NCBI RefSeq assembly: GCF_040807025.1
Contig: NC_090945.1
Span: 39,301,088-39,365,087, forward strand
DNA from: Struthio camelus
Lineage: Eukaryota > Chordata > Aves > Struthioniformes > Struthionidae
Direction: 5' to 3'
DNA: 64,000 nucleotides
Positions 1 through 62,787 of this stretch are shown here, in pieces. Under the pieces are notes generated by a model, which worked only from the letters and a program-made list of their open reading frames with translations, made no database searches and had not been told where the DNA came from. Position numbers and translations under genes: made by a program. Position 1 is the stretch's first letter; every line of letters begins with the position of its first letter.

Positions 1-402
1 CGCAAATCTGTCTTCATCGGTGGCCAGGAGCAGCTTTAAGAAATCTGTGGTTTGGGGACTTTGTAAGGTGGAGGTGATATATTTGTTATAGTTATGTTTG
101 TGCCCTGATAGGTTTTTATTTCATGAGTTTGTCTAATTCAAAAAGTCATTGAAAAATATACACTCTTCAATCACTTAGGTTGAACGTTTACAAATGACTC
201 TCTGGAAAAGTAGAACAATACAAATACATTCCTCTTTCTCCAATGATTCTTTCGTGTGATGTATCATGAAAATCAAAATGAAAGTAGAATTAGATATATC
301 TTTAAAATTGTTCACATGCAATCAGCAAATAAGGACAAGAATACTGTTGAAGAAGAAGTTAAGAGCTCTTTCAGTAACAGACACTTTGGCTTATAATTGC
401 AG
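1..402 (+). other. FGB intron (3' part)
   Basis: No exon is recognisable before 401. The expected preceding coiled-coil exon, which would end in a Ser-Gly-Lys region, is not present, so it lies left of the window. Confidence 0.75.
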
Positions 403-2716
<2,314 letters not shown>

Positions 2717-33239: not shown

Positions 33240-33311
<72 letters not shown>

Positions 33312-33325
33312 TGTGCGCGCATGCG
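33190..33325. repeat. Compound GTGA/GA/GT microsatellite
   Basis: GTGA repeats from about 33208, GAGAGT units, then an uninterrupted GT run of more than 60 bases to about 33308, ending in GCGCGCATGCGC. Confidence 0.95.
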
Positions 33326-33772
33326 CATCTTTACACATTAATATAATTTCATATGTGAATATAAAACTAAAAACAGCATGCAGCTTATTTATATATGAAT
33401 AAAAAGGAAGTGTTTAAAGTCGGGGGAGGTGCGGCGCACCCAGCGCTGCCGGCGAGCGGCGGCGGCTGCCGCTGCCCTGGGCTGCGGCTGGGGGCGGGGG
33501 GGGGGGGGGGGGCACGGCGGCCCCGGCCGAAACGCAGCCTTGTAGCGTGAAGTCTGGGCCCAGGCGATCTCGGCGGAGCTCTTATTTCTGTTCCTGGGTG
33601 ACAGATTTCGCAGGGCATCGTTCCTAAGTGCAACCCGACGCTCGCCTGCGCGGGCTGTGCACCCGGCAGAAAAAAAAGACACGAACAAACGTCAGAAGTG
33701 CTTGTTGAAGTATGTTCAAGGTGGCTCCTTTCTACGTCCATATCGCCGCCGCTCATCACCATACACTTACAA

Positions 33773-33779
33773 TATAAAG
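33773..33779 (+). promoter_or_regulatory. TATA box of the AtuA-family gene
   Basis: TATAAAG, 138-144 bases before the start codon. It would give a transcription start near 33800 and a 5' UTR of about 115 bases. Confidence 0.5.
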
Positions 33780-33916
33780 ATCCGACACGGCCCCGACGGG
33801 GGAGAGCCAGAGGCCCCCGGTGCCCGCCCCACAGAGCCCGGCCGGGCCGGGGGAGGCGGAGCCGGGCGGTGCCGCTGCCGCCGCCGCCATCCCGCCCCGC
33901 CGCCGCCGCCGCCACC

Positions 33917-34082
33917 ATGAGCTGCGCCGCGCTGCTGGGTCGCCGGGGGCCGCGGGTCCTGCGGGCCGCCGCCGGCCCGGCCGGCTGGAGCAGGCGGCGC
34001 AGCGGCGGGTGCGAGCCGCCGGCGGGCGGCGCCGTGCGCATCGGCTGCGCCTCGGGCTTCTGGGGGGACACGGCGACCGCAG
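33917..34082 (+). CDS. AtuA-family exon 1
   Basis: Residues 1-55. Starts MSCAALLGRRGPRVLRAAAG and ends GCASGFWGDTATA, the glycine-rich start of the domain. Donor GTAGGC at 34083. Confidence 0.88.
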
Positions 34083-37000
34083 GTAGGCGGCGGCGGCAGC
34101 CCGGGGGCCGCCGGGCCGGGCCGGGCAGCGGGCGGCAGCTCGCAGCGCCCCGAGCCGCCGCGTTGCGTAAGCGGCCGGGGCGAAGCCGCCGCCGCCGCCG
34201 CCGCCGCCGCCGCCCGGGCAGAGCGGCCCCGCGGCGGGAGCGGGTGGGCGGCGAGGCCCTGGCGGCGGCGGGGAGCTGGCGGCGGCGGCGGGCGGAGGGG
34301 CCCGGGCGGTGGGAGCTCACGGCCAGCGCGTCTCCGCCCGCCAGTGCCGCAGCTGCTGTACGGAGGGAAGCTGGACTTCCTCGTCTTCGACTACCTCTCC
34401 GAGATCACCATGTCGCTGCTGACGGCCGCCAAGGCCGGGTCGCCCGTAAGTAGCTGCGGCGCTGCCCCGGTGGGACCGGCGAGGGTCAGGGCCTGGCAAC
34501 GCGCCCGCCGGGGGCAGTGGCTGCCCCGGCCCCCAAAGCAGAGCGGCTCCCGGCGCAGGGCCGGGGCCGGCCGGCGGCGCGGGGGGGGCCGCCCCGGGCC
34601 CAGCGCCCCCGGGCGAGGCTGGAGGCGGCCCTTGCCAGGCCCCCTTCCGAGCTGCATCGCCCTGCCGGCTCCGCCCGGCCTCTGCCCGCCTCTTGGGCAA
34701 GCGGCCCCTTCGCTTCTGCGTTTTCCTACTCGCATGCCGTTGCTTGTTCTCACAAGCCGGGCGTTTTACTTGGTCCCGAGTGAAAACGAGCGCGTCCTCT
34801 TCCGCAGCGTTACGTAAGCGTTGCGAGAAGTGGTTGCTCGCCAGTGTTTTCTCCCCTCAGCCACGAAAAGGGGGTTGGGTTGACTTATCCATAACAGCGA
34901 GTTACAGCTTGTTGTTGTTTCAGGCTTTGGGTTACGCTCCTGACTTTGTCTCCGCCGCAGTGGCTCCCTACATAAAAGACCTTCACAGGAAAGGTACGCC
35001 GCTCTTCGCGCGAGTGCGTATGTTCGTGACGTTCAGTCGTCGTTTGGATGTGTTTTCCTTAGTGCGTCTTAACTAGAAGCAGCTGCTTTCCACCCCGCGT
35101 TTTGCTCTTCTCTGAGAATAATATTTTAAACACCAGCAGAAGTCTCATCCCTGATTTTGACAAGTGCGAAGTGGAAATCTAGTGGTAACACTTGAACTGG
35201 GTCAATTTAAAATGCTTGCCTGTAAGTATAAACATACACGTATCTCCATGTAATTATTATTCTAGCTTTAATTCGGGAGTGGAAGATAACTTTGTCTGCG
35301 AATCTTTGCGTTGAAAACGTCTGAAGTCTGTTTTGACAAACTAAAAACTTGTCAACGTTCCCAAATAGTTCTAGCTTTTTATATACAAACGTTACTTATT
35401 TTCTGCTCACTTATTTCTCTTGCCATTTATATTAGTATGTTTTCGTAGCTCACTCAGTTTGAAAGGAAAAAGTGAATTATTTCTCCTAAGCTTCCAATAC
35501 AGTCTGCAATTTATATATAGATGCATAGATCTGTTAAAATGAAGTAGTATGAAGAGCACAGCTGCTCTGAACGACCAATGTCAAACGTTGTGGTTGTGGG
35601 AACTGTTGTGACGCTGTCTGTTTTATCCTCATCATGTCTGTGTCTCTTCAGTTACTTTCCATACGTGAAGAGATGGTGTATAAATGCAAGATGATCTATA
35701 GCAATTATTTTGCTGTATAACCCTTCTACAGCGACTCAATCCTTTTATTTCACAGTATAATGCAGGTTGATACTTCAATGTAATTTTAATGCGCTACGTG
35801 ATTAGATGTCTGACACCTTGCAGAGGTGATGTCTTGCTTGTGTTTCTGCATGCTTTAAGTGTCTGAAATACAGATGATTGTTAATGCTGCTGAACTTGGC
35901 TTGTCTTTTTTGTTTAGGTGTTCGCGTCATCAGTAATGCCGGAGGAATTAACCCACTTGCTTGTGCGGCTGCCCTTCAGGAGGTGGCAAAGAAAGCAGAT
36001 GTTGACTTGAAAATAGCCGTTGTTGCTGGAGATGACCTAATGAGTGAGGTATTTTACTTTGTCTTAAGGCTTAGTAGAATTGTGAAAGTTCTTTTCTATA
36101 GCAAAAGATGGCATTTATTATCCAATGAGAACTTCTTTTGTGCATCTTTATGCAGTATCTTTCTACTGCTAAAAGCATCTAAAAATTGCTGCTTCATTTT
36201 GTTTTTTTTTTTTTTTTAATGCATGAAAATAATCTTTGACACATTTTGTTTGGTGTGTAAAGGGGTGAATTTCGTTCTCAGTCTGCTGCTGTGTGCCTTT
36301 TTGAAGCAGACTTTGAATCCCTGATTTAAAGTCTTCTCTCTCTTCAGGAGACTATAGGATGTGCTGTTACTTACTGCTTCTGTCTAAACTAAATAATAAT
36401 GCCTACCTAATCTCTTAAACTAAGATGTGGTGTAGTTACCACGTATTCCAAGTGTTCATGCCTCCTGGCTGGTTTTAGTAGTTTGCACTCATTACCTGCT
36501 GTTACTTTGCTTATATCCAGTAAGGTAGCTTTAAGTGGGAGAGCTGAAGTTTGAATCTCTTCACAGAATTTGAAATCTAGAGAGGAAGTGTGTGGCTTTT
36601 TTTTGGTCTTATTTTAAAGGACTTTCATTCCTGTATAAAATCTGTTTCTGCAAAAAATGTTGGGCGTACCTGAAAAGATACCATGAAAACCATTCTATGC
36701 ATTGGTAACATTTAAGAGGTGATAGGTTTGAGCTACAGTTCAATCTCTGCCTGCAACTTGACAAATTATTAATTTCCATAGACTCTGATTAGTCCTTGCA
36801 TGGGATTGAGTACGGAAGAAGTTTGAATAAACTTTTCTTCACAAATTATGTGCAATACTTTGACTTTCTTTCAAGAAATGTTTGTCCTATTGAAATTAGC
36901 GTAACATCAGTGGTCCAGTAGTTCATTACTGGTATGATGGTGGAATGGTTGTTATTTGAGCTTGGCATGGATATCTCTGATCTGAAATGGATCGTTTTCT

Positions 37001-40000
37001 GTGTTATTGTCGGTACATAACTGATATGAGCAAAATACAGCTTTAGAGATAACTTTATAGTTTTGACACCAAAAATCATAAATGACAGTAGGAAATGTTA
37101 TTTGTAGTTTTGAAGATTTCAGTCCTTACCCATAGTATACTAAATTCAATAGAAACAGAAGGATTTTTTTAATGCTAGGTTACCAGCTAATTATCATAGT
37201 GATAACGGTGGTGGAAAATACTTGGAGAAAAGGTTGAAGGTAAATACACTTTAAAAAACAATTTTTTTAAAAAATTAATGTTATCAAATGATCTCAAAAA
37301 GAAAGATCAGCTGTCAGAAAAGTTGTCAAGGTGCTATGAATATTCCAGGTCAATATGTTGAGAAGTGTCCAGGAAAAGTTCTACTATTTATAAAATGTCA
37401 ACTATTCTCTAACCTGATTGATGCTCTGTTAGGAGTTGCCGAATCTGGTAGTCTGATAGAGGTGAGGCTGCTGCAGCTCCATGTCCATAAGTCCAACCAC
37501 TGGCAAGGCTGAGCATGTATTTCTCATAGGTGCATGTGCACACTGTATATGTTCGTGTGTGTGTATATATATATGCACACAAACACACATAGATGTGTAT
37601 AGAAACATACACACATGTATATACAGGTGTGCATATATGTGTTAAGTTGCATATACACCCATCTACACACGCACACACAAATTAGGCAGACACACAAGCC
37701 AGTCACATGGTTCAGCGCATACAGAAGAGACAATACTCACGCAAACACAAGCAGCATGAGTGACCTAATCTGTTTCCCATCTCCACATGATCACGATAAA
37801 AGCTCACTGGTGGAAAATATATACAATATGGATGATCCCTCTAGTAGCTGAGCTCGGACACTCAGTCTGTCCAATAGCTGGCCCTTAGATCCACCTGGTC
37901 TTCCCAGTTACTAGCACCTGGGCGTGTGAGCTCCCAAGGTGTGCAGCCCTGCTCCAGCTGCTGGTTCTCAGACCTTCACGCTCTGTCTCGTGCATGCATG
38001 TATGCTCTAAGGACCCTGCCAGAAAGTAGCCCTAGACGTTGGGTCAGTCCAGTTGCCTGCCTCTGGATCCCCTAGTCTGCCCAGTTGCCTCATGCACAGA
38101 CAAACACACTCGCGTGCAAATGGGTCTTTCTGGTAACAAGGTGTACTGTGGAAAACAGCAAAGCGTTGCCTGGAGCTACAGTATTAGCCTTGTTTTCTGG
38201 CCGTGCAACCGTTGCTGTTACAGCAGACATGTTTTTTTGGTGTGGTTTGATTTATTCAGTTCTACAGGAATTAAAGACAGTTTGAAACCCTAAAGAATAT
38301 ATCCGCTCGTTGTGATTGATCATCTGTGAATGCACTTGCATTCTTTAAAGACTGATTTCTTTTTCAGTGTGCAGGAACACTATGATTAAAAGTGTGTCTA
38401 AAGCTGCAAGTTGTTGAACTGATTTGTATTTTGTTTTGAATTCCAACAATTATGCTTTTCTTAAGAGTTGCTACAAAGTGGATCTGTTGTCTGAAATCAA
38501 TAAAAGGTTTACAGTAAATACTACAAGATATTCATAGACTTGAGTTTTGTTTTTTCTTTTAATAGAAAGAGAACCTGAAAGGAGCTGGTATCACTGATTT
38601 AGAGAGTGGCAAACAATTTCCAGAGAGCGTTCACAGCATGAATGTGTACCTTGGGTGAGTTACGTAAACAAGTTGTTTTTATTGGGGTGGGAGGGAGAGT
38701 AACATATTGACTACGTGACATGATTTTGATTTGTAGGTAGAACAACCTAGTATTTAAAGTTGTCCATTACATAATTAAAGCAAACAGAAAAAATAAATTT
38801 ATTTCCTTTATTGCTTCTAAATAATTTTCTAATTTAGAACTTTGCCAGTTGTGCCTCTTTAGCATGACATCTCCTGAGACTCTTCAGGTTTTAGTTCAAG
38901 CTAAAATCACTAGTTTAATTATAACAATCCCCCAAATCCCTTTGCATATGCAGAGTATCCTATCACTTCATGGAGCGGGGTTGTTCAGGATTGTCATCCC
39001 TAGAGAAACACAACTCGGGAGCTGAGGTACCCTGACACGTGATGAATGCTGTAGAAGCCTGCAGTATGTCAGGCTGATTTGTGTGTCAGATTTTGTGCTT
39101 TTGAAACTCTGGAGGCTGCCTTTTTGGAACAGATGACTGTTGTGAAAGACGTTAGGTGCTCTCTTCAAAATACTGAACACCTCCTGACAACCTCTTAAGT
39201 GCGAGTGTTCTAACTGCCTGTTTGTGAATGGTGACATTGCAAGTGCAAATTATGACATTTGCATTGTCGTCATCAGTTTCCTCAGAGGAATCAAGGTAAA
39301 TCAAGTTTATCAAAAGTGAAGGACTGAGAAATGGCCAAGAGTCAGGCATTCCCAAAAGCTAGCATCTCTTCCAGTTGACAGTCCTGGTGATCCTGCTTTT
39401 GCTTTTTCACCCTTTATGCCCTATATACCATCCCTTCTGTATTTCTTTTCTGTGTATTTCTTAAGTCCCTACACACAGCACCCCTTAATTATTACATTAA
39501 TCTTTTTTGGGGAAAAACTGCCCTGCTCTCTCTTGTGTCACTGTCACGGCAATTTCTAGAAATGCATCACTGGCACGTGGCAGGGTATGACTGTACCCTA
39601 ATCTAATACAAAATATGTTTTTCTCTATAAAACAAAGATCTTCTAATAGCTTACTCTTTCGATTTGTATTTAGTGTTTCCTGTTATAGTTGTTACTAGAT
39701 TTTCTGTTTGTTAATCTTTGATTCACAACATTTGTGGATCATAAGTAACTGAGGTCTAAGAAATAATGATTAATATTTATAACCGTAAGAAAGTGTTAAC
39801 TCCAATCTTGAATGAGTCATGTTTTATTCATGATTTAAAAAAAAAAAAAAAGTCCAACTCAAAGCAGAGAGGACAAAAGCAGACCAGTTATCAGGATAAT
39901 GCATTCTAAAATTCTGCTTCTGCTCAGCTTTGCCAACAAGTGCTACAACAGCAGAGAAAGGAGAGTCTTGCTCTTTATTTTCTAATGCAGTGAACATTTC

Positions 40001-43000
40001 TTTATGGACTGCTTATTCTCGGATGAGTTGAAATGCAAAGCTACTACCAGTCCTTTAGTCCTTTTAGTTGTACTTCATAAGTTACATTTTTCTTTGACAT
40101 CACCAGCAGTGGAGGCTTATTTGTAAAGCAAAGGGAAATTTATATATGCCTGTAAAACAATTTGAAATCATAACGTACTGGGTAAAATCTGTAAGTTCTG
40201 CAGATTGATCTGGTTTTTTTTAATTCCTTAAGTCAGGTGTGTTTACAGTTTGAGAGGGTGGTTGGTTGGTTGTGGTTTTTTGTTGATTTATTTTTGATTC
40301 AGAATGTAAACTCCACCTGAAGAATTTGCATTGAGATGTAGATTCTGAAGTGTTTCTTCTGTCCCTCCTGATTTGGACTATTATAAATTTTGCAGACTGA
40401 ACTCATGTACATCTTTAATAATAAGATCCAGACTGCTGCTACACTTAGTGACATATACTACTTTTTTAAAGGTAGTTATGCAGTTGCTGTGTCACTGTCC
40501 TGCATATTTGCATGCAGAAATCCTATTTATGCTGCTTACCAGTGACTGTTACTTCACACTGTGCTCAGAGGTATAAATTCTTCTGGTATACTGCATATAT
40601 GCTTATTTATCTGGCTAATATCCTTTAGTCTATGTAGGATTGGCTACATATGTATTTATTTACCTTGTAGGTTATTTATATCATTAAGATAATTTCTGTG
40701 CATTCTAACCTTTTTCTTAACAAGAGCAGGACTAAGTCTCTTTATAGAAACTTAAGAACAAAATCAAGATTTTTCTAAAAAGCACCCAAATAATGTGGTG
40801 TGTGTTTTCAAGCTGCTTATTTCGTGAAGAATAGAAGGATCCAGTACAGAGCATGGGTTTAGAAGCCAGGAGACGCGCGTTCTGGGCAAAGATTTTTTAC
40901 TAACCTTCTGTGTAAACTTGAGCAGTTCACCTGGATGAATATTTTCAAGCACTGCTAATTCTGACTGGGCTAACTAATCTGGAATATCTGTTGCCTCAAT
41001 TTCTTCAAAAATAATTAGTTTACAATGCTCTTCTTTAGAGTGGTGGATGTTATTTTTAAAAACACTCACTGTGTATACAAAATGACTGATTGATCGTTAA
41101 TTTATGTGATCAGGACATGTAAGTGATTTTTATCCTATCTGTGGCAAGCAACTGGTTTTTAAACGGCATTTTAAAAAGTGAGAACGCACATTGTTTTATT
41201 TTGTCATCTTCAGAGCAAGACCAATAAGCAGGGCTCTTGACCTTGGAGCTGATATTGTTGTGACTGGTAGATGTGTTGACAGCGGGATTGTATTGGGACC
41301 CCTCATTCATTCAGTAAGTTCAAGTTAATTATCATATGATGCTGAACGTATGGGAATTCAGTAATCATTGTCAGATGTTTCTGCTCCTTATGAAAATAAA
41401 GATGCAAAAATAAAAATAGTGAACTCTTAACTTTTTTTTTCTTTCTTTTTTTTTTTTTTGCTTACGTGCATGAAGCTTTACCAACTTTCACTGCTTCTAA
41501 ATTTATGGCAGGAATATTTAAACATGTATATACCATGAAACTGGAAATCATCTCAATGAAGTTCAGGGAATTTTGCCTTGTCTTACCAGGATTTCGCTTT
41601 TAACTTCTTCCACTTTCAAATTTAGTGCATAAGGCTAAGAAACATATAATTTTCTTTACCACAAGGTGGCGCTTGTAGATCTCGTTTTCTTTTAGGGGAA
41701 AAGGCTTGTGAGGTGGTCTAAAACAGTGGCCTTTTTCAATGGGTAAGCAGTTTTATTTGAAGAAGTTGAGTTTCAGTGTGACGTTTTTCAAATTCTTTCA
41801 GTTTCAAGAAATAATAAAAGGCAGGGTATGTGGTTTTCTGCAGTGTTTTTAATAGCATGTACACCTTTTTGAATGACCACACGTTGTGGAACATTCAAGA
41901 TTTCTTTTGGTACACATTTACAAATATACTGGGATACATGTTAATGTCTAGTTACAGATGTCCTTTCTAAAACTTATTACTTATTTGACTTCATGCATAT
42001 AAAATACTGTATAATCTCTAGTTAAACTTCCCCTCTTATAATTGCCGTTATGACTTCTTATTCTATTCCTATCTATTTATATACTCAAAACAGTTGCCAG
42101 CATATATTATTTACTCTAGAGAGGCCTTATCTGTTATTTATGTCTTATGGTGGATTCTGTTAAATCCTAAGTAAGAAACAAGGAATATATTGTTTGCGTT
42201 ACATTGAACTTATAAAAACAATCTGTAGTTGCACGGACCAGTAGTGATCCAGGAACTGATAAATTTCAAAAATTGGGAAAATAGTGCTTTGTTTATGTGG
42301 CACAACATATTTGTTAGATATTTAACCCTATAGTATATGCAAGTTTTGAAGATTTTGAAAGTCGTCCGTTTAAAGTATTATGAAGAGGATGAGACTTTGA
42401 GAATTTATTTTAGTTTGGACGTATTAATAAGAGGAAAACTGAAACACATCGGAACTCTTTTACTCTCTTACAGTGTAGCAACTCAAATCCACCTGCAGCT
42501 CCTACCAACTAGTTAGATTGTTGTTCAGATTTCTGCAGTTACTTAGAAAATATGTACAATGTGTTGTTGCTCAGAGCAGTGAACATACTATATGCTGTTT
42601 CCTGTATTGTATAAAATGTTGTATATGTAACATATTTGTATTTTTCTTCTAGTTTGGCTGGAATAGGGATGAATTTGACTTATTAGCTGCAGGAAGGTAA
42701 ATGATATAAGAGGAAATGGGTAAAATTATGTTCGATATCAAATAACATCAGAATGACAGATCTTTAATGTGCAAAATCCCTAAGTGCTCGTATTACTGAT
42801 TTCATTTGTTGGAATGTTACAGTTAGGCTCACTTAATAATCTGTTGTTGGAACTGAAATCATAAAAACTTCACTTTGGAACGATTTAAAATAACAAAATG
42901 AGGGAAAGAGTGAATGATTAAACAGCATAACTTTTTCTTCTTGTCCGTTTTGTGTCAAAAGAGGTGAAGTCTTACAGTACAGACCAGTGGTTCCCAGCTT

Positions 43001-46000
43001 TTCCTATTTGGGCATCACTGTTACTAGTTGAGATGGCAGCAGCTCTTGTCCTCAAACATGCACAGAAGGAAAGATTCAGTCATTGGTCAGCATCCATATA
43101 TGGTTTTGCAGAAGCTAAGTGTGAGTATCCCCCTTTGCAAAACTAGTTGTAAATCCCAAGGTTAGGAATCGGATGTGGAAAGTACAGGGTAAAAATCTGC
43201 TTTATCTAATTTAACTTTCTGCATCACCTTTACTGTATTGAAGTCCATAAAAATGAATGACTACTTAGGTGATCTAAGTGCACCTAGTAGTAGTATTTTG
43301 GAGCTCCTATGGCTCGAGAATAAATACGGAAAGAAGTTCTGGCTCCAGTGAATTGGAGATATAGTGAGCAACCATTTGGTTTAGAGAGAGCAGGATTTCT
43401 CTCATAGCTCTTTTAAGTATTCAGTATTTACAGAATATGGCAATCAAAGATTTGAAAATCGTAATACGATAGTTCAGGGATGTCCTTCACCTTTTGATTG
43501 AGACCTTATAGTTCTTGATTAAAAGTGGGCTTTGCGTGTTTAGTTGTTAACAATGCAAACCAACCAGAATACTGAATTTTGATGAAGATTTTTGGAAACG
43601 AGCACTCAAATTTTGGTGTCAGATGATGTCTTTTTAGACTGTTTTCACTTTTTTTTTTTTTTTAAGAAAGTTCATTTGTTCCTTCATGTAGAATTCTAGT
43701 TTTTTCAAGCCTTCTTAGGTTAGACTTTCAAAATCCTTAGTCATATTTAGTGCAAAGTTTGTAAACATAGTACTGGATGCTTATGAAAAAAAATTTAGCG
43801 TATTCTGTTATTTAGCGTTCTTTTCATTGTACTATAATATTTTCAGGCTGGATTTGTGAAACCTTGTTTTACAAAATACTTAATTATTTGAATGTGTGTC
43901 ATCTTCCCAGCCTTGCAGGTCATCTCATTGAATGTGGTGCTCAGTGTACAGGTGGAATATTCACTGACTGGCATGCAGTACCCGACTGGTAGGTAACCGT
44001 GACATCGGCATGCATGTTTATAGGGAACCAAAGATAAGGTTTCCTGCTATTTCTGTGTTGTGAAATCTGTTTTCACTTTTTATGGAGGAAGAGGGAGGAG
44101 GAGCAGTATTTGCCTTTTCATATTTTCCGGCCTTAGAGTTCATTCTCCCTCTTCAAATTTTCCTTTCAGGTCAACTGGAGACTTTGGTAACTTGAAAAGC
44201 AGATAATTTGAAACATTTATCAGCCCTTTTATTTTATTTTATTTTTTTCTTCTCTCTTTTGGTGTTTCCTTTTCTGTCGTCTGCTTTTTGGAAAAGTTTA
44301 TTATAGTTTTTGATAGATCACTATATGTAATGGGAAAGACAATAAGAATATTTTATGTGCTCTTTTGTCAGTCTTCGATTAGATCACAGGCGCCTGTTGT
44401 GTAGTCACCACTCTCACATAATTTACTCTGGCAGGAATGACTATATGCCACAGTCCTCTCCTGACATATGACCTGATCTCCATAAGTGCATTGAACTGTC
44501 TGTTCATCCGAATACATTACTGTCCTTTCAAAGTTACATTCAGCTCATGTGTCCAGACCTACTGAATTAGACCTCCACAGAGGTAGGTCTCTTTCTGCCT
44601 GCTGAAAAAGGCCACAAGGAAGGTCTAGTGTAGCCTGCTTTCAATCAACTTGTTTTTGAATAGTTTAAAAGCAGTCAAGGAACATGTTTTATACAGGATG
44701 AATGATTCTGGGTGTGGTTTATTCACATTTTTCATGGGGTGAGAGGGAGGAATCTTGACCGCTGCCTTGTCGTGAGCAAGGCAGTGCTTCCATTATGTGA
44801 CGAGTGAAGTGCTAGAGGAGGGATGTAAGAGAGAAGAGTGCTTTCATCTGGCCATACGCCTGCTGCCAAGCTGACTCTAGGAAGGAGGCCACTGGGAACA
44901 GTCTGTAGGTCAGATGCAGTGAATTAGCAGGACAGCCATGCCCTGTAGACGCGCTCGCTTGCCCCCCGCCCGCCCTTGTAATGGCTGTTGCTAATTCAGA
45001 GCTTGATCCCGATATTAGCGCTCCACTTCTGAGTCACTGAACACCGTTGACTTACAGGTGAAGACACGTATTACATGGAAGGGATGAGGGGCAGACGTTT
45101 CTCTTCACATATTAGAAGGCCATTACACCGGAACAAACTGCGCTTGCTCTTCATTATCATGTTCAATGGGAATGACAAATGTTAAATGACAAGATTTATA
45201 GTTACGAAACATTTTGCTCCGTTCAGAAGTTTATAAGTGCTAATCTTATCCCTGTGTCTGTATCTCTTGATGATTTTATTATGCTCCAACAGACCTTTGA
45301 TTTGTGAAAGAATGAGGAACCATCCCCCTGTGGTTTTTTTTTTTTGTATTGAAGTACTGGCTTGTTCTTTATTTTTAAAGATTTTTCTGTAAGCAATGAC
45401 AATCTAGTTTAAAAAAAAAAAAGGACGTTTGACTGTCTTAAGCCATGGGCTGCTGGAATAAGAATAGGAGTAATTTTACATACACAAATACACATTTATT
45501 AGACATGCATAACTAATACTAAGGCATATATATGTAAATCAGAGAGGTGTGTCTAAAATTACAATAGTCTTGTAGCATACAGCTGACTGGTAGTAACTTG
45601 AATTGCTACTAACGAGTATAGAAGATTAGCACTAAATACTGCTCTGTTACCTTATCCCCACCATCTGCATGCACACATTTGAACTGTGCCTGATTTTTAT
45701 AACAATAATTTATTTACCTTCAGATTAAGTCTGTTGAAGCATTATTGCAGTGCCTTAGAACTGATAAATGTTTTTGTAATTCCAGGAAGTCTCAGGCATT
45801 TAATTGATCAAATTCTTGAAATGCAAGCATGGTATTCTGCCCATAGGATTTATTAGTAATGCTTTTCAAAACAAAAACCAAATCATTTTTGAGCTTTAAA
45901 ATTTTGTATTTGGAGAGGCAGAATAGACGACTTGACTAAAGCAGACTTGTGGTCCAGTGTATTTGCTTGGGATATAGTGAAAAATTGATTTGTTAGAGCT

Positions 46001-52000: not shown

Positions 52001-55000
52001 GTTATTTATACTGATACTGTTTGTCTGCTCCCTTCCATGGTTGGTCCACTTTTAGTGACCTAAGTCTTTGCCAGATTTCAAACATTTTAGGGATGCAGTT
52101 CTATCTTTGCCTCGGTATATTGTTGTCTTGTTTTCGTGTTTTGTTTTTTAATGGCCCAAATCTTTTTCAGATCGGACCTTGGGTAAACTGAAGTTTAATC
52201 AATGTTAAATTTTTTCAAACTTCTCTTCTAATTTCTTTTCTTTTTTTTTTTTTGGCGGGGGGAGGCGGCAGGAGGGAAGCTCTAGTGGACTCAGAGGTTC
52301 CAAGCAGAAAGTTGAATATCTGTAGTTTACATTTTACTTTCAAAGCGAAGATGACTGGGGAGTAGGTGCACAAAAGTGTGTCTTAAGAGTTGCATGTGTC
52401 GATGGTTTAGAAGGATGCCTGTTCTCCCTGCTACCTTGCAGTGTGGCTGCACTGCCTGGATTGCACTGAGTAATCTGTCTTGATAGAAGTGATTTAAGTT
52501 TTGGTAAGTGATTCAAATAAGCTGCGTTCAGCTTGCTAGCAAGGCACCCGATGGTATTGCCTGAAGAAAAGACAGACAGTAGGGCCAAAGCGCACAAGCA
52601 TGGCACTAAGAGGTTAACAGCTCCTTAATTCTAGCGTTGTTCAGTCACTGATCTTGCTGTGTAACATTGGGTGAATCACCTTCCTTCCTCTGTCTGTCTC
52701 CTCATCTGTAAAAGTGCGGTAATTACATATGTTAGTTTATTAGCTTACAATGATATTTGAAGCTGAGAATTGAGAGTTATTTTTGGGGTATTGCTTTCTT
52801 TTGTTTCACGTTTTAAAATGATGAGTGTTGCATACTTTCTGCCGGTGTCTTTTCTCCCTCCTATTCGCCTCAAAAAATCTGGAATCATCTAGAATCACCA
52901 GCTTCTTACAAATCAGTTCTCCCTATTCACAGGTTTCTTTTTTTCTCCTCATCTGTTTAGTGGTTTAAATAGTTTTAAACACCAGGCTAATGAAGTATGG
53001 TCTTTTGTGATTCGTGGTGGGCTTTTCTAGGTGTTCCCCAGCTACCATAGTTTCCAAGTTTTGTATACAATCAGTGTTAAAGTTGCTGATCTCTAGTAAC
53101 AGAGCTTGTGTCTTAATCCTTTTTTTTTAAATAATGGAATTATGTTTGAAGCTTCCTCATGTTAAGGAATCTGTCCAAACTCCCATGAACTTTTACAAAT
53201 GTCAGTTATAAGAGTTCACTGGTTTCTTTACTTACTTCCTTTAAAACTTTGTGGATTTATGTTATCCAAACTGTGTTCCTCTAACCTTTGCTAATAACCA
53301 GTTTGGTTGTATGTTCAGCACATTGTTCTGCTAGCACCCACGGATAATTAATTTCAGGGATGAACTGAGCTTAAGTAACATACAAAGGACCTGAAGGCCA
53401 TTGACTTTAATGGGAATGGTGATCTTCAGCACCTTTTATTATCAGGTCCTTTTTAGAACAGTTTAGATTTTGTGAGGGGCTCTATCTGCTTAGCTCCCCT
53501 TTTTCTGTCAGCTGCTCCTTTTCTGTTCCTGGGAAACTTTATTTGGACAAATCTCCAACTTCTTGTGAGACGGGAGTGAGTCAGGCAGCCTCTTTAAGAG
53601 AATATTAAGGCTTTGCTTTGATTTTCAGGTTTCGTTTTTATCGTTACATTTGCTGAAAGAAATTCTCTGGAGATGAAAGAAAAGCCTTTCAACCTGGAAA
53701 GCAGCTATTTAGATCTGCTCTACATAGTCCTGAAAATGCTGTCCTGCTGCTGTAACAGTGGCAGCGTACCTTTCACTATGAGCTGTTTGGTGACTTTCTG
53801 TATGTTAATCTTGTGAAGATGTGGGGAGGGGGAATATTTTCATTTATGAAGACCTCTGTAATTTGCTGCTTTACTGCCTTTTCTCTTTGCTGTGCCTGAT
53901 TTTTCTGTCTTTCTGTGTTGTATTACTGTTCTGATCTAGAGATCTTAATTTCTTCTATCTTCCTGTTTTCTTATTATGATTTGTTGTGTATATAATTTAA
54001 CACAAACATGCGAAATTGTCCTTAATAGCTGTGATTATTCCTGTTTCCTACTTCTCTTGGTTTCTGAGATCTCTGGCACAGACTGTTTTTACCTCTTTGA
54101 CTTTCTTACAAATCCAGATGTTACCTTCATTCTGTGTCTGCTGCTATAGTTTGACTAGGATGACACTACTTAGTTTGACTTTTTCTCAATCTTTTCTCTG
54201 GCCAGAACTAGCAATCATGCTTTTCTTCTGAATTTGCCTCCTCAGTTATAGTTCCTCTAATTCTTTCTACCTCTCCTACTGCTACGGTTTCTGTTAGTGT
54301 CCTAACTGGTGTTTCTCCTCCATTGCTTTCTCCTCTCCCGTCCCTTTACTGTTGATGTTTGATGTTATATCTGCACTCCTTTGCCAGGCAATAAAATGCA
54401 TCCCCGTGTTATCTTGGTTAGCGGTTTATTCAGTGCTTTTTCTTGTGTACATGCTGTGAAATGCTGATATGCTGTTAATCGTTCTTTTCCCGCTCCCTAT
54501 TTTTAAGTTGTATATTTTTTGTTTTTTTTTTTTGGTTTTTTAATATTCCAGGCATAACATAGGCTTTCCCATTGTAGAATGTACCTCTGAAGGAGACTTC
54601 GTTATTTCCAAACCGCCGGACACGGGGGGGCTAATCTCTTTTGGCACTGTGGCCGAACAATTGGTGTATGAAGTGGGCAACCCTCGGCGTTATCTCTTAC
54701 CAGATGTCACGTGTGACTTTTCTGAAGTTTCCATCACTGAAATTCCAGGTTAGTTCTATAACATGTTAAGAGATCTAGGTCAGTGAACTGGGTTATCAAA
54801 CTAAAACAGTTACTTTGGTTTCCATTTTTTTTCCTCTGCGTATTTGTACTGTGATAATATTCTGAACTCCATAACATCAGAAATACTTTGCTTCAATAAT
54901 AAGTTAGGCTAAAATTGTACAGTAAAACTTCTGCTCATTCCACATAATCGGCAGTCCAATAAGGCCAGCTTGTTACTCTAGTTCTTTTTTAAAAAAAAAA

Positions 55001-58000
55001 AAAAAAAGCCGGTTGGGGGGGGGGGGAGAACCCTAACCTTGCTATGAACTTTTAGCTTGCAAATGACCCGATATGACATGTTTGAACTTAAAATGAACTT
55101 TCACATGAACTTTTAGTTAGTCCTCTTAGAAATATAGCAGATGGAAAATAGGCAGATTTCTTAAATATTTTTAGTTTGAAGTGCTTTGACACGTACTCTG
55201 GTTAGATCAGGGCAAGCTATCTGCTTTTGTTGTTTACATTGCTGGTTTTATTATCCTGCTGGATTAGTTGCAGTGCTGCAACTGAGAGGTGCTTCTGTTT
55301 TCTTTTTGTCAATGAATGCCATGTATTTTGTTTTGTGAGGTTTTTGCTAGTGTTTCTCCATCACCTGGCATATAAAGCTCCTCCAGATCTGTACTCTGAC
55401 TGCAGAGATACTGTTCGGTATTGACAGAGTGGGTTAACCTCATGTCAGCCTGTGGAGAGAGCGAGAATGTTATTTTTGAGTGACGTGTAAAAATTCTGCT
55501 AGTCCCTTTCAATTGTTAGATGTGTGCTGAAGGAATTTCTGTTTTCATCTCCTCAGAATATTTATATAAAGCTTTAAATTGTTTGCTAAATATTTTAAAG
55601 CACAGGTTAGCTACAGGTGAGCTACAGGGTAATTCTGTCTGTGTTTGATAGACACATAAATGAGGTGCTGGTCCTGCACTGCTAGTTTTCAAGGGACTGT
55701 GCCTGTTGATTTTCAGCAGCACAAGGTCAGACCTGATGACATGGGAGCATTTTCTCCAGTTTCTTATTGTCATTAGCACACCTGCCACAGAGCACAACGT
55801 TTGCCCTGGAACATATGTTCAGGCTGTTTGTTTCTGTTAGCAACAAGAAAACTACAGTTAAATTACTTTTTCACTTGCCAAGCTCCCAGCAAATAAGCTC
55901 TCGCTGTTTTCTTGTCTTTCTCCTGTTCTGTTTATGTGCCAAGTGAAGGACTTCAGTCTGCTCCAGCCAACTACAGTAAATTGAATGCTATATGTGACTG
56001 CAATAACTGGCTGTTAAATGGGAGATAATTATTGAGTCCAAAGTCCTAAGGTTACTTTCTGTGTTAAGTATTTTAAGTGCATGAATAAACATTTCAAGGA
56101 TGATATTAAAATGTTCACTGAAGTCATAAATTTAGTCACCAATTTGCTGTCTGTGTTTTCCCAAGGCATGAAGGGCTGAGTAGTAAATGTTTTTTCTTCT
56201 GTGGCAGTACAGGTATCAATGTTTCTTTTTTTTAAGTATAGTTGTTTGATATGTATCACAAGCAAATGTCTCTGAAGTTATCCTGAAGAACTTTAAGTAT
56301 TGATTTTTAACTATTTTAGGTATTGAAGGTGGGGCAGTGAAAGTTCATGGAGCAAAAGGATCACCTCCTTCAACATTTTATAAGGTATTATCTCCTTCTA
56401 TGGAGCGTAAGGTATTTTTGACTTCAACCTGGCATTTTTTTTAGATAACACTAAGTATCTTCTGTCAAAAACCACCACCATATTAAAATCTTTATTTTTC
56501 TTCCCCCAGGAGTAAAGAAAAGAAAAAAAAACTACCTCATATATTGAAAATGTTCATTTATATAACAGGCTAATCCAGAAATCTTCAGAAAAGGCTCAGG
56601 TGGTTCTATAATTTTCCAAAAAAAAAAAAAAGTCTGTCACCCCACTGTCATTTTTACAATATTTGTTCATATTTATACTGGCATGCCAATCTTGTATTTC
56701 ATTATGAAGTGTATCTGCCAGCTGTTTCTCAAAAGTTAAGTACTGAGTAACTACATCTGTCAAGAGAGCAATTATATAGTCTCTTGAAATATGCTACTGA
56801 AAGAAACTTGCACTTCTGGTAAAAGTGCAAAGTTTCATTTGACATTATTCTTCCCTTGGTCTCCCTTCCCTGAGCAGATGCAAGTGTAATACAATTCTGG
56901 TGAAGTACTGGTAGGGCTGGATCATTTTCCTGTTTAAACTAATGGGAAAACTAACTTTTACAGAAACAAGGTTAAGGCCAGAAATTGACTGTTTAGTGTG
57001 GCCATATCAAACGTGAGTTAACCTAAGTACTGGATCGCGCAGATCTGCTTAGACTTCTATTTGTTCGATAAAACGTGTGCCTAAGCATAAATTTAATTCA
57101 TACTGCATTTTAAACATATTTTAAACAGTTTTTAAACCGGTTTTATATGAGATAGTTTCACAGGTTTTCCAAAATATATTTCAAAATTAAATATCATCAT
57201 CATTAAGGAAGGTTTGGTTTTGGCAGGTTGTAACGTCCATTTAGAAGACAGAACTCTCTAAAGGCTCCATAATTGGAGCATGCTGCCAAAGGCTTTTTAG
57301 CATTGAGCAGTATACTGCAATTCACTTTCTCAGGTACTCAGTCATCAAGGTTTTCACTTCTTTTCATTTTCTAGTAATCACCTTTATGAAAACGGGCTTT
57401 GATATTTTAAAAGTACCGTAGCAGCATAATTGGATCATGAATTTTTCTAAACTTTCACCCAATTTAATAAAACATTGGCTTTTTTTGATTAACACCCTCC
57501 AGTTTCAGTACAATGTTGTCTTGTCAGGCTTTTGTATATTTTGTTTTAATTATTAGATCAAGAATGCTCATTACAAATTTCCCTCCTGGGTGACCTGTGT
57601 CTGTAAATAAATGTATTTTTTCAAATCTGAAAATAAGCTGTAGTTGTGTTTGAATTTAAAAAAAAAAAAATCCCTTAAAATATAAACACATTTCTGAAAT
57701 ATATTTAATTTTAAAAATAAAATTTAAACCAGTGATGATATCACTGACAGAAGTCAATTTAGCAGTAATTCCTAAAAAATGACAGTGAAGAGCACATGTT
57801 TTTACATAACATAAAATCCTTTTATCTAAATGATAGCTACCCTAGTGCTTCCTATTACTCCTGTATTGAATAGTGAAATTTTGATATTGGCAAATACAGA
57901 CAGCAGTGCATGTGTGAAGCAAGAAATATTTACTCTTTCTTGATCTGAGCGTGCAGTTCAGAGCAAAACTTACTTGGTTCTGCTCAGTGTCCTCCAGTAA

Positions 58001-61000
58001 TTTTTGTCTTCAGCAGCCTTGTGCACCTGCAGTTACTGTTCTTGACTTTGCATTTGCATGCTTTTGTACCGCTAAAGGAAATAATGAAAATAACTAAGGT
58101 TAATAAGAGATCAAGTGAACCATTTCAAAGTGGAAGTGGTTATATTTAGTTGTTTGTGCTTGTAGCTGTCCAGATTGAGACTTTCAGTTAATGAACCATG
58201 AAATGGAAGCAAGTAAATAGAATGAGATTTTTGTATTATTATTATTATTCATCAATGCAGTTCTTTCTTTTACATAGCAGTAAAACAGTAAGAAGTCTCT
58301 CAAGGAGGTGATATGAATATATGTTCTGGCTTTTTTTTGAATATATCTTATGTTTAATATTTGAAACAGTGTAATAATGTTCTAACATGCGAAAGTTAAG
58401 AGTTCCTGTGAAATATTTTCATTTTTTGAGACTCTTTGTTTAATTGTCTGTCAGTGTCAAATGGATGGATTTTGGCAAAGCACGTCTACTTGAGAAGTCA
58501 TTTTTAGGACGTGAACTTTAGTGTGGTCGACTTGGCTAAAAAGTGACTTAATGGGCATTATAACAAGCTAGAAATACTTAAAGGGTGTGTTTACATCCTT
58601 CAGTAATTTTGCAGTAAGCCTAGAGGAGAATCATGTAGTTGATGCATCAAAGTTGAAATGGAGTTAGTGGGAACAGTGGTAAGAGAAAGTGAGATATAAA
58701 GTAAAATTGGAGGGAAATAAAGATCAATACCTTACCTGTGAAATAGCTTTCCAAAAGAAATAGCTGCAGCCCTGTTACTTGGGACATTTAAAAGTAGACT
58801 GGATAAAGTGCTGGAAAACTTACTGTAGGAAGCACACTTCTGTGTGTAGACAGTTATACCGTATATCTTAGCAGATCCTTCCCTCTGTTTTTCCTGTTAG
58901 GTAACAAATCTTATCTTGACCATACTCATCATACTTAATTTAGATAAATTTATTAAAGCCCCTCTACCATTTATGGCCACGCATTATGATCATTACTTTT
59001 ATTGTATTAGAGCTCTGTTGAACAGTTGTAACATTGGAAGTGTAGTAAAATGATTATTTAAATGTTTGCAACATATGCTGTGTTCTTTTTAACACACGCG
59101 CACGGACACTCGCACACGTGCGCGCACACACCCACACACTACCTGCCCCCCCCGCCCCCAGCATTTACTGCAACACTCCAGGAAAATTTATTTCTAGTTT
59201 ATTTCTTGTTGATAGTTTATGCAGCTTTTCAACATCATAATGTATCCTATGTTCCAAAGTGGATATGTACAAGAGAATTTTTTTTTTTTAAATCACAGTG
59301 AGAAGCAGTTCTGAGTTTTACAGTTTTGCAGATTTGAAACTTCCTCCAGTACAATTTTGCATTTTAAATAATGGAATAAGTTTTCTTGATGCCATGGTGA
59401 TGATGACGACTTCCCGTTATTCCACTTCTTACTAGTTATGAAGAATGATTGTCAAAGAGATTTATAGTACATCAATACTGAATCCCATGTAATTGTATGC
59501 TCCCTTTATCATTAGGTAAGTGCCACTTACCTTGATGGTTTCAGAGCTACTGCTGTCTGCCCAGTGGGAGGGCCAAAGGCTGTACAAAAAGGAAAACACA
59601 CGGCGGAAAGTATTCTGAAACGGTTAGTATTTGAGATTTGGAACAGTTTGTTGTTTTGTTTTTAGGGTCAAAATCAAAACAGAACGGTGAACTGTGCATA
59701 TGATAGCAACCATATCCAACTAGAAGGAATCCTGGAAGATCATCATCTTCCAGTTGGAAGGACATTTCAAGATATGAGTAGTCTCCTTAGGAAACCTGCC
59801 TTCAGGGTATAACTACATTTGACAGAGGGGAAAGAGGTCTCAAATGTTGTTGAAAATAGACAGCTAGATAGCAGAGAGGGACCCATATTAATGAGGGAAA
59901 AGCTGCAAGTCAGACTAACGTTTTTTTAGATGTCAGAGAGAAATTCAAATAAAAACAGGTTTCATTGATTCCCACAGAACTTTTTTCTTTTTAATCAAGA
60001 GTCTTAGTGCTGTGACATGTAGGCAGTTTACCCAGATCGTGTTTTAAGTGTTTAAAGTTTAATTTGCAACCTTGAGACAGAAATTATTTTGTCTGCCAGA
60101 ACAATTTTCTACTTGTAAGGCAGCCTAGTACACCTGTAGTCATGTTTTCATGTCAGTGTATGTGGGGGATGAGGGATTCCTTTTAAAAATGTAACTCCAT
60201 ATCCTCAGAAAAGTCTTGGAACATTTACTCCAGTAGCACCCAATCTTTCTAGCTGTTAGCTATTTACTTCCTTTGCATGATGTTACACATATGATCTCTC
60301 TCCCATCATACGATAGACCTGTGGAGCAAGTATGCTAGGACAGTTGCCTGTCAGAAATGCATGATTTCATGTGGTCCTACAGCGTAACATATTGTTCCTC
60401 ATATATTAATAAAGAAAAAAATCCTTCAAGATCTGTTAAATACAAAGACTCAAGGGCTCAGGAAATCCCTGAAAAACACTTTTTTTGTTGTTTTTTTGAA
60501 AGCTAGGCAAGTATTCTGGAAAAGAATGGTGTATTTACTTTTCTTAAATTTTGCTTTCATTTACTCTTGGCCACTATTTCAGACTGGACTACATGAATCT
60601 TCTGTCTGACTGAGAAAGTTTGTGGCACTGCTGCTGCTGCCACTACCACCGATAAATTAATTCGGCCTGCTTACTGGGCTGTCCTGAGTAATCCTCAGAA
60701 TAGGGCTGGTGGGAGATAGCCAAAGGCTGGTTAACTGGCTTGATGAGTTGCATCTAGCCTGAGAGTCATGCCTCAAGCAGCTGTTGCTAGTTCTGTGCAT
60801 TAAAATTGACAATATAGAGCATCGCCCTATAGTATAGAGAACAGTGTAATATGAGGAATTGTTTATGCAGCATGTCCAAAAGATGTGTGTATACGAACCT
60901 AGGTACAGAACAACAGTTAAGGCGTTTCTGATCCCTGTCAGAGAACGCTCTACCAGGAAATGCTTCCTTTTAGGGAACACTAACTTCAGTCTTTCCACCA

Positions 61001-62787
61001 ATTTCTATTGCAAGAGAATGTCATAAGGACAGTTAGGATCTTTCAGGTAGCCAGCTTCTAGTATTTTATAAATTAAATTCCTCCCAGTCATCTAATGACA
61101 AGAAGTATAGATTTCAGCATAGAGACTTAAGCTGCTTCAGTTGTACAACTTAATTTAATAGGCAGCCTAAGGTATTAAGCAGTTTTAGCAGCTTTTAATA
61201 TGGCTACTGCTTTCACTTCTTTCTTGCATGCTTCCTCTCCTTTACTCATTTATTAATTTTAAATGCAGGAAAGATTTGGCAGAATACGTGTGAAATGTGT
61301 TTCAGGTAGTCTTCAGTGTCTCTGTTGCATTACAAAGGCACGTGAATGGGCTAAAAATTACCTACAGAATGTATTTTGAATTCTGATGTCTCTAGCTAAC
61401 TATTTTTAGGTAAATAACTTAGCAAAAATTAGTTGCAAACATAGTTTGCAAATTTAAGTGCCTTAAATCAGGTATTTGTCTTTCTGTGGTCATCAAAATA
61501 AAAATGGCCCCGTTCTATGCTACACTGACCACTTTCGTCTCTATACAACAATTAGAAAGTTGCATTTGATATTTAAGTCTCATTTACTCTTTTACTTCTC
61601 AGTTACCGCAGTTAATACTGACAATGATGGCATACTAACAGAGTCTTCAAAATGTTTCACTGATCCAAAATATTTTTCTGATTCTAGCTTAATTCCCATG
61701 TTTCAGCTGATAAAATCTTTTCAACAACTGGAAGGATGCCAGACAAAGGGTTATTGGGGAAACCAGTTTAGGTGCTTAATGGTTTCAGAGTTTGACGGTT
61801 TTAAACTACACTAGTAATTGTCAGCTTGTTCAGTGTTTGAGCATTGTGCTATATTTTAAGAGTTGTTGCAAATGCTCTATTTAATCCAAATTTAATATTT
61901 GACAAAACCCAGTATTTATTAATTGGTGGCTCTCTTGAAGCTGACCTGGATGGAAAAAAATGAGAAAATAGCAATGTGTTTTTATGCTATCTAAAAAGAA
62001 AGTCCATACCCATTGTTAAGCATAATAGGACAGACTTGGCATTCTTGACACAATGTGCTTTTGTTGGAAATACTCTTAGAAAAAGGGTTTGACGGCTTTC
62101 ACAGTACCAGATTAGAAATGCATGGATAATGAAGAAAAGTTCTGTTTAAAAATTTCATCTACTTTTTGGCCTTTGAGTTGTATATTCATTACTCCCAAAA
62201 AAGTACCTTTAAAGTTTGAATAAAAGTTCCTTCTTCAGTTAAATTTTTCTTCCTTGGTGCCTGTGATGTAGTGATATAGTTTCATGTGTTTATTGGTTGT
62301 TCATAATGTCTTACAGGAGAAACAAAGACAGGAACTGAATTTCCAGTACGAAAACCAGGAAGATTGTATATATTGTAACTATATTTTGAACTGTCTTTGT
62401 CTTAAAGACGAAAGTAAAAGATCTGGAATCCATGTATTTGCCTATCATCTTTCAAATAATTTGAGTAAAGAAAAGATTCAAATTGAAACCCAGGAATAAA
62501 TTCAGAGGTGTAATTTCTTGACAGCATCACTCGATTTGTAGTATTCAAATGTACTTGGCTAGTGAAAAGTAGTGATATTCAGTCTACATCACAGAGCTAA
62601 CTGCTGTGGATCACATAAGGCTATTTCAGAGAATCATTTTGAGGCAGTGCACTAATAAAACATCATTTGTTGCAGGACTCGTCTTATTTTCAGTCAGCTT
62701 GGGTATGAAGATTACAGTGCAGTTAACGTACAGGTTTTAGGGTCTGAAGATGCATATGGACCTCATGCTAGAAGAACTATAGATGGT
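33917..62787 (+). CDS. AtuA/DUF1446 family protein, first 12 exons (3' end outside window)
   Basis: Exons: 33917-34082, 34345-34445, 34924-34993, 35918-36048, 38566-38654, 41214-41313, 42653-42696, 43911-43988, 54552-54748, 56320-56384, 59516-59622 and 62676-62787. They give 420 codons in one frame with GT/AG signals throughout. The start has a strong Kozak context (GCCACCATGA). Residues 1-40 are rich in Arg and Ala with almost no acidic residue, suggesting a mitochondrial presequence. The rest follows the DUF1446 order: VRIGCASGFWGD, LDFLVFDYLSE, VISNAGGINPLACAAAL, VAGDDLM, NVYLGARPISRALDLGADIV, VTGRCVDSGIVLGPLIHSFG, LAGHLIECGAQCTGG, FVISKPPDTGGLISF and VAEQLVYEVGNPRRYLLPDV. Bacterial AtuA belongs to citronellol/geraniol breakdown but its reaction is not settled, so no substrate is assigned. 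The gene is divergent from FGG. The family C-terminal part is expected right of the window. Confidence 0.9.
34185..34214. repeat. GCC trinucleotide repeat in intron 1
   Basis: Ten perfect GCC units in the first intron of the AtuA-family gene. Confidence 0.95.
34345..34445 (+). CDS. AtuA-family exon 2
   Basis: VPQLLYGGKLDFLVFDYLSE then ITMSLLTAAKAGSP. Donor GTAAGT at 34446. Confidence 0.9.
34924..34993 (+). CDS. AtuA-family exon 3
   Basis: ALGYAPDFVSAAVAPYIKDL then HRK. Acceptor TTTCAG, donor GTACGC at 34994. Confidence 0.9.
35918..36048 (+). CDS. AtuA-family exon 4
   Basis: GVRVISNAGGINPLACAAAL, then KIAVVAGDDLMSE. NAGGINP and the VAGDD turn are hallmark positions of the family. Confidence 0.92.
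37430..38260. repeat. Unclassified repeat-like block with TG/CA tracts
   Basis: In intron 4 of the AtuA-family gene. It starts with alternating TG, TA and CA tracts (37551-37695), followed by CT-rich, GC-richer sequence with recurring CCAGTTGCCT pieces, unlike the flanks. It could be an old LTR or satellite-like insertion; no boundaries were found. Confidence 0.35.
38566..38654 (+). CDS. AtuA-family exon 5
   Basis: KENLKGAGITDLESGKQFPE then SVHSMNVYLG. Donor GTGAGT at 38655. Confidence 0.9.
40835..40940 (+). repeat. MIR-like SINE relic
   Basis: GGTTTAGAAGCCAGGAGACG, TTCTGGGCAAAG, then ACTAACCTTCTGTGTAAACT and TGAGCAGTTCACC follow the MIR order. Confidence 0.6.
41214..41313 (+). CDS. AtuA-family exon 6
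   Basis: ARPISRALDLGADIVVTGRC then VDSGIVLGPLIHS, the best-conserved stretch. Donor GTAAGT at 41314. Confidence 0.93.
42653..42696 (+). CDS. AtuA-family exon 7
   Basis: FGWNRDEFDLLAAG in a 44-base exon. Acceptor TTCTAG, donor GTAAAT at 42697. In the family the FGW motif directly follows LIH. Confidence 0.9.
43911..43988 (+). CDS. AtuA-family exon 8
   Basis: SLAGHLIECGAQCTGGIFTD then WHAVPD. Donor GTAGGT at 43989; a 10.6 kb intron follows. Confidence 0.92.
48495..48600 (+). repeat. Possible MIR-like relic
   Basis: AGCATTGTGGCTAAAATACT, TTGCCCAGGGAGTTGAGAAA and CTTGGCTCTGAGCTC resemble the 5' part of amniote MIR-type SINEs, strongly diverged. Confidence 0.4.
51522..51561. repeat. CT tract joined to C17 run
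   Basis: CTCTCCCTCTCTCTCTCT followed by 17 C in a row (51545-51561). Confidence 0.95.
52640..52730 (+). repeat. MIR-like SINE relic
   Basis: CTTGCTGTGTAACATTGGGT, GAATCACCTTCC and TCTCCTCATCTGTAAAAGTG are the MIR core and tail in order. Confidence 0.75.
54552..54748 (+). CDS. AtuA-family exon 9
   Basis: WHNIGFPIVECTSEGDFVIS, KPPDTGGLISFGTVAEQLVY and EVGNPRRYLLPDVTCDFSEV. KPPDTGG is a family signature. Confidence 0.93.
56320..56384 (+). CDS. AtuA-family exon 10
   Basis: GIEGGAVKVHGAKGSPPSTF then YK. Donor GTATTA at 56385. Confidence 0.88.
58700..58845 (+). repeat. CR1-like LINE fragment
   Basis: AATAGCTTTCCAAAAGAAAT, then TTGGGACATTTAAAAGTAGA and CTGGATAAAGTGCTGGAAAA match the 3' UTR pattern of amniote CR1 in sense orientation. 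Confidence 0.65.
59090..59160. repeat. CA/CG-rich alternating tract and C run
   Basis: ACACGCGCACGGACACTCGC, CACACGTGCGCGCACACACC and a run of Cs, in intron 10. Confidence 0.85.
59516..59622 (+). CDS. AtuA-family exon 11
   Basis: VSATYLDGFRATAVCPVGGP then KAVQKGKHTAESILKR. Donor GTTAGT at 59623. Confidence 0.88.
62676..62787 (+). CDS. AtuA-family exon 12
   Basis: TRLIFSQLGYEDYSAVNVQV then LGSEDAYGPHARRTIDG. Donor GTAAGT at 62788, phase 0. Confidence 0.88.

Follow-up and report, generated by a model that had tools for sequence, protein, structure and literature searches.

Gene structure and domains of the ostrich AtuA-family gene

Computational analysis of a 64,000-nucleotide stretch of the ostrich (Struthio camelus) genome (the window; forward strand of contig NC_090945.1, C4:39301088-39365087 of the 1.45-Gb genome) identified a gene of the AtuA/DUF1446 family between the fibrinogen gene FGG and LRAT, which probably encodes a mitochondrial carbon-carbon lyase. 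A preliminary description had recognized 12 exons encoding 420 residues of such a protein. These exons (33917-62787 in window coordinates, plus strand) are correct, as their phases match and the frame is continuous through exactly residues 1-420, but the gene is larger. The window, extended by 20 kb upstream and by 80 kb downstream, was searched with a bacterial AtuA profile from 26 relatives' loci, and profile matches, splice sites and phases gave a model of 20 exons on the plus strand at 33917-100679, from ATG to TAA, in which exons 13-20 (69517-100679, loci L085-L088) lie past the window end. The coding sequence of 1938 bases, including the stop, specifies 645 residues and contains no internal stops or frameshifts.

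Thirteen open pieces on the plus strand of the 68-kb gene region matched the bacterial AtuA profile at E<0.01, and all 13 are exons of the model; as controls, neither the antisense strand nor any of 10 dinucleotide shuffles of the same region gave a match. The order of the exon pieces on the plus strand agrees with the protein order. Individually, exons 3, 7, 10, 15 and 20 reached only E 0.25-3.5 against the profile, and for exons 14 and 16 there was no match; all seven were kept because their order, phase and splice sites fit. Exon 14 was selected by phase (1 in, 2 out) and by a PGxT or GGRP motif, and it has both motifs. Two candidates for the linker exon, 84854-84965 and 82198-82261, had equal splice scores (9.7) and fitting phases, and the first was chosen as exon 16 because the second is low-complexity. 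Exon 16 is therefore the least certain exon, although the other choice would alter residues 485-522 alone and leave both protein domains unaffected. Donors are GT in 18 of the 19 introns and GC in intron 19 (CAG|GCATGT at 99465/99466, L088), acceptors are AG in all 19, and the exon 17 donor has a low score.

The Pfam search supported the proposed family membership, with AtuA (PF07287) matching at 451.4 bits against a cut-off of 22.8, over positions 1-434 of the 437 in the profile. The 420 residues had been thought to follow this domain almost end to end; the domain is present, but it spans residues 40-486, so that they stop short of its end. A second domain, missing from the preliminary description, is AtuA_ferredoxin (PF23544; residues 531-635, profile positions 2-113 of 113), which matched at 122.1 bits against a cut-off of 27. 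These were the only Pfam matches at E 0.001, with no HMGL-like domain among them, and NCBIfam at E 0.001 gave no match for the ostrich protein or for two bacterial AtuA proteins. Identity to 21 long-form bacterial AtuA proteins was 41-52%, and at the 96 columns invariant among these homologues the ostrich protein has 94 identical residues and two conservative changes. The Arg/Ala-rich presequence that had been described was confirmed as a 39-residue N-terminal extension with 7 Arg, 8 Ala, no Lys and one acidic residue; its composition and hydrophobic moment (0.56) would fit a cleavable import presequence, and a mitochondrial location is proposed. A PF07287 search of the whole genome, which short exons can escape, found no second AtuA copy, its 4 matches all lying within the window. 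The PF02422 keratin family gave 150 scored matches in the genome, which agrees with a bird, although this family also occurs in other sauropsids.

Fibrinogen exons lie upstream of the gene, and of five matches to the LRAT family across the genome the best is at 107188 (plus strand), which places the AtuA gene between FGG and LRAT, beside the fibrinogen cluster as had been reported; the gene occupies most of this interval. The three fibrinogen-domain loci are presumably FGB, FGA and FGG, names that were assigned from the gene order as we know it. The gene starts in a CpG island (seven 500-base windows, the first starting at 33400 and the last at 34600), and a GT microsatellite of ~124 bases (33192-33315) is located just upstream of the island. 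Summed strand skews were positive in 30 of 33 two-kb intron blocks versus 31 of 46 outside, a sign expected for transcription; because the downstream flank is also positive, this is a weak sign and was rejected as proof of transcription. The excess of T and G spans the gene body and runs on downstream of the gene, and the intron at 52001-56000 is strongly T-rich on the plus strand (AT skew -0.227). Neither Rfam families (gathering score) nor tRNA genes were found in the window.

Table 1. Exons of the AtuA-family gene and neighbouring features (window coordinates).
Feature	Coordinates	Strand	Residues	Remarks
Exon 1	33917..34082	+	1-56	ATG, context GCCGCCACCATGAGC; Arg/Ala-rich presequence, AtuA domain start
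Exon 2	34345..34445	+	56-89	
Exon 3	34924..34993	+	90-113	weak profile match alone; supported by phase and splice sites
Exon 4	35918..36048	+	113-156	NAGGxNP and GDD motifs
Exon 5	38566..38654	+	157-186	
Exon 6	41214..41313	+	186-219	GRCVDS motif (R205, D208)
Exon 7	42653..42696	+	220-234	weak profile match alone; supported by phase and splice sites
Exon 8	43911..43988	+	234-260	GHLIECGAQCTGG and TDW (E241, C242, D253)
Exon 9	54552..54748	+	260-326	strongest single-exon PF07287 match, 79.6 bits
Exon 10	56320..56384	+	326-347	weak profile match alone; supported by phase and splice sites
Exon 11	59516..59622	+	348-383	
Exon 12	62676..62787	+	383-420	last exon within window
Exon 13	69517..69616	+		beyond window
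Exon 14	79313..79352	+		beyond window; found by phase and motifs
Exon 15	80824..80875	+		beyond window; weak profile match alone
Exon 16	84854..84965	+		beyond window; linker, least certain
Exon 17	90265..90348	+		beyond window
Exon 18	91904..92027	+		beyond window
Exon 19	99375..99465	+		beyond window; GC donor follows
Exon 20	100605..100679	+		beyond window; TAA stop; weak profile match alone
Fibrinogen C-terminal domain exons, FGB by position	399..2704	+		PF00147
Fibrinogen C-terminal domain, FGA by position	7156..7851	-		PF00147
Fibrinogen C-terminal domain exons, FGG by position	20658..22549	-		PF00147
CpG island over gene start	33400..35099	.		GC 0.59-0.87, CpG observed/expected 0.86-1.07

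Bacterial relatives and citramalate lyase

The only solved relative found was citramalate lyase CmlA/CmlB (PDB 9erq and 9evf), which belongs to the AtuA family by its PDB name and has pyruvate bound; no publication behind these entries was found in the literature search. Models of a bacterial homologue matched the folds of both the large and the small subunit of CmlAB, and the modelled C-terminal domain of L013 retrieved the small-subunit chain 9evf_B at rank 1 (prob 1.00, E 1.9e-3). Sequence searches of the PDB with a split small subunit and with the ostrich C-terminal domain found nothing relevant.

Gene context was compared at the best 80 of 101 relative-encoding loci, among 146 stretches matching a pattern. 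A carboxyltransferase was present at 73 of the 80 loci (45/45 in Acinetobacter, 28/35 in others), an enoyl-coenzyme A (CoA) hydratase at 70, a biotin carboxylase at 59, an acyl-CoA dehydrogenase at 59 and a short-chain dehydrogenase/reductase at 54. These counts include matches of query loci to themselves, several of the loci are truncated at the end of a contig, Acinetobacter accounts for more than its share, and the domain names come from 20 sampled neighbours. One distant long-form AtuA, 34% identical, was again within a carboxylase cluster. Split AtuA pairs lie directly after a citrate:proton symporter on a Roseomonas plasmid (L098 6550-9655) and directly after a degradative 3-hydroxy-3-methylglutaryl-CoA (HMG-CoA) reductase on a haloarchaeon plasmid (L099 6730-9693), and the latter neighbour suggests that some family members may act on HMG-type substrates. 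Citrate, HMG and citramalate each have a tertiary hydroxyl beside a carboxylate arm. Two other loci, L005 (7745-11024) and L006 (near 10502), have an aldehyde dehydrogenase and no carboxylase neighbours, and L005 also adjoins a glucose-methanol-choline oxidoreductase.

A tree was computed from 27 rows, bacterial and archaeal besides the ostrich protein and with CmlA not among them. The ostrich protein fell into a 15-row group that includes several other loci besides the Acinetobacter-type atu clusters, with support of 87/95, below the star of the tool; the order inside this group was not resolved, and three rows outside it form very long branches. Placing the ostrich protein among bacteria was rejected on account of this support, the inner order and the restriction of the other rows to bacteria and archaea. 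The family had been described as mainly bacterial; it does have bacterial relatives, but the published text available to us also tabulates DUF1446 genes of Arabidopsis, rice and Aspergillus, which makes an old eukaryotic gene a natural reading.

Proposed reaction and alternative explanations

The gene is probably functional in the bird, and its product probably a mitochondrial carbon-carbon lyase of the AtuA family. We propose that this protein is a naturally fused counterpart of CmlA and CmlB, in which residues 40-486 form the large, CmlA-like domain and residues 531-635 the small, CmlB-like domain with a ferredoxin fold. By analogy with its homologues, the enzyme would bind a substrate that carries a tertiary hydroxyl in the beta position relative to a carboxylate or CoA thioester, and would split the neighbouring carbon-carbon bond by a retro-aldol reaction, so that an acetate-type fragment would be released and a 3-oxoacyl-CoA (or keto acid) left. 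A nucleotide would probably be in the site, as ADP is in 9evf, and candidate active-site residues are R205, D208, E241, C242, D253, Y299 and E300. Our guess at the substrate, guided by context, is the class of 3-hydroxy-3-alkylglutaryl-CoA, with HMG-CoA or a longer prenyl homologue as likeliest members, which would make this a branch-removing step. The preliminary description had speculated on a metabolic link; one to isoprenoid or branched-chain metabolism is plausible from the bacterial context and from the accessible portions of papers, but the link to retinoids through LRAT is one of adjacency only. The observation in that description is confirmed and its interpretation partly supported.

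Several points weigh against the lyase assignment. The match to 9evf_B is modest, and both the fold and the gene context are those of bacterial homologues, which stand in for the ostrich protein. CmlA has just 17% identity with the modelled homologue. In the fragment compared, CmlA and the ostrich protein share 51 of 223 aligned positions; because these identities are low, citramalate activity need not carry over. With the ostrich protein as the only query, phmmer did not retrieve 9erq or 9evf from the PDB at E<=10 (best E 0.5, nothing relevant), and a split AtuA query reached them only at E 0.0099. Carboxyltransferases are missing from 7 of the 80 relatives' loci, some of the hydratase matches, at no more than 28-30% identity, may be unrelated, and the substrate varies within the family, since distant forms adjoin a citrate symporter or HMG-CoA reductase instead. 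The AtuA step of the terpene pathway is itself disputed, and a review, in the part available, assigns it to LiuE (PMC4097962).

It is possible, although unlikely, that the protein has other chemistry (hydratase, CoA transfer or nucleotide-dependent activation) or a non-enzymatic role. No biochemistry of a bird or vertebrate member was found in the literature, and the papers, as far as their text was accessible, disagree on the role of AtuA in the terpene pathway; however, two separate relatives are named or, in the available text, reported as lyases, and the residues common to the ostrich protein and CmlA include polar invariant ones. Less probable still is a true lyase of citramalate (or of a related C5 dicarboxylate), serving mitochondrial itaconate/citramalate clearance and not acting on CoA thioesters. 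That name is carried by the sole solved relative, with its bound pyruvate, and, according to the available part of a paper on mesaconate and citramalate (PMC4682846), a DUF1446 gene is located downstream of the methylaspartate ammonia-lyase gene in Enterobacteriaceae, an arrangement that fits citramalate. The long-form AtuA proteins to which the ostrich protein is 41-52% identical nevertheless come mostly from acyl-CoA carboxylase loci, with CmlA only 17% identical to the modelled homologue, and the ostrich protein groups with the Acinetobacter-type atu clusters in the tree described above.

A decaying or unexpressed relic, with a frame open by chance, would fit the GC donor and the low-scoring exon 17 donor, but it is very improbable given the uninterrupted coding sequence, the retained invariant residues, the CpG-island start and, weakly, the sign of the intron skew; a pseudogene reading was rejected. 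Bacterial contamination or recent bacterial transfer, for which the identity to bacterial proteins might be cited, has a negligible probability, and contamination was rejected, because the gene has 19 introns and lies on an 88-Mb contig with vertebrate genes on both sides, and the family is, in the text available, also listed in plants and fungi; an ancient transfer is conceivable.

If birds used the proposed lyase on prenyl acids, a prenyl-CoA carboxylase would be needed. PF01039 carboxyltransferase exons were found in the ostrich genome on C8, C9, C16 and C17, and at three places on C40 and C41 with similar scores. Going by bird chromosomes as we know them, we take C16 and C17 to be acetyl-CoA carboxylases, C9 to be propionyl-CoA carboxylase beta and C40/C41 to be methylcrotonyl-CoA carboxylase (MCC) beta. 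The C8 locus (C8:37222053-37230610, L101-L102) has ten exons with consistent phases and GT-AG introns, encoding 477 residues without a stop, a count outside which the first and last coding exons lie. Its nearest relative in the PDB is a mitochondrial MCC beta chain (499 bits, versus 343 bits for geranyl-CoA carboxylase beta). At the position of MCC Phe191, which was located in the alignment via a 3-residue MCC insertion, the C8 protein has Gly (SDGGRIF) and the C40 copy Phe (DRDHFGRIF). In the same alignment, bacterial carboxyltransferases from AtuA loci have Gly (12/13) or Ala (1/13), and one from an AtuA cluster on a Pseudosulfitobacter plasmid (L096 11853-13460) combines the MCC-type insertion with Gly, like the C8 protein. 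According to the accessible part of a study of MCC, the 3-residue insertion lies just before Phe191, the residue at this position sets substrate size, and F191G MCC gains geranyl-CoA activity (PMC4673880).

Two results count against this lead: the C8 protein has a diverged C domain (GSESYVM for GAGNYGM, GGEQAA absent), and no clear second MCC-alpha-like locus was found among five PF02785 matches, in a search that seemingly missed expected genes. It is doubtful, if conceivable, that birds keep an Atu-like mitochondrial route for methyl-branched prenyl acids, in which the C8 paralogue would carboxylate prenyl-CoA, a hydratase would add water, AtuA would remove the carboxylated branch as acetate, and beta-oxidation would proceed. 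Should the carboxylase paralogue work with AtuA, an isoprenoid route for removing branches, of a type that we know of in no pathway map, could exist in birds and perhaps in other vertebrates.

No vertebrate AtuA/DUF1446 member was described in the titles and abstract openings of the papers listed, with most subscription journals outside, and literature on the pathway intermediate and on FGG/LRAT/RBM46 synteny added nothing for vertebrates. The ostrich gene is a vertebrate member of a known family and is expected to exist in databases as an unnamed predicted gene; the full gene model at the FGG-LRAT locus, the reading as a fused CmlA-CmlB protein and the carboxylase lead are new. A strongly conserved, open metabolic gene lies in a well-studied vertebrate neighbourhood, and the link to citramalate lyase provides a specific hypothesis for an enzyme, in which residues are named and the possible substrates are few. 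In mammals, any loss of the gene would most obviously be sought in the FGG-LRAT interval.

Comparison with known systems

CmlAB consists of two polypeptides, chain A of 456 residues and chain B of 105, whereas the ostrich protein is a single 645-residue frame, and for this reason it is not filed as CmlAB but only as probably working like it. The AtuA of bacterial atu clusters, a fusion of PF07287 and PF23544, has both domains in the same order as the ostrich protein; unlike it, the ostrich gene has 19 introns, an Arg/Ala-rich presequence of 39 residues and no operon, and lies between FGG and LRAT.

ThnQ/ThnS of anaerobic naphthalene breakdown, which act on a cyclic substrate, resemble the ostrich protein by their AtuA-like name; in the available part of the report, they are said to cleave at a tertiary hydroxylated carbon to give a 3-oxoacyl-CoA, an activity cited there as unpublished (PMC12016498). 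HMG-CoA lyase (LiuE/HMGCL) would attack the same target, the tertiary hydroxyl carbon of HMG-CoA, but has an HMGL-type domain, to which the ostrich protein has no match (Pfam, E 0.001). The citramalate, isohexenylglutaryl-CoA and cyclohexyl reactions all take one form, in which the bond beside a tertiary hydroxyl carbon is broken and a carboxylic fragment leaves.
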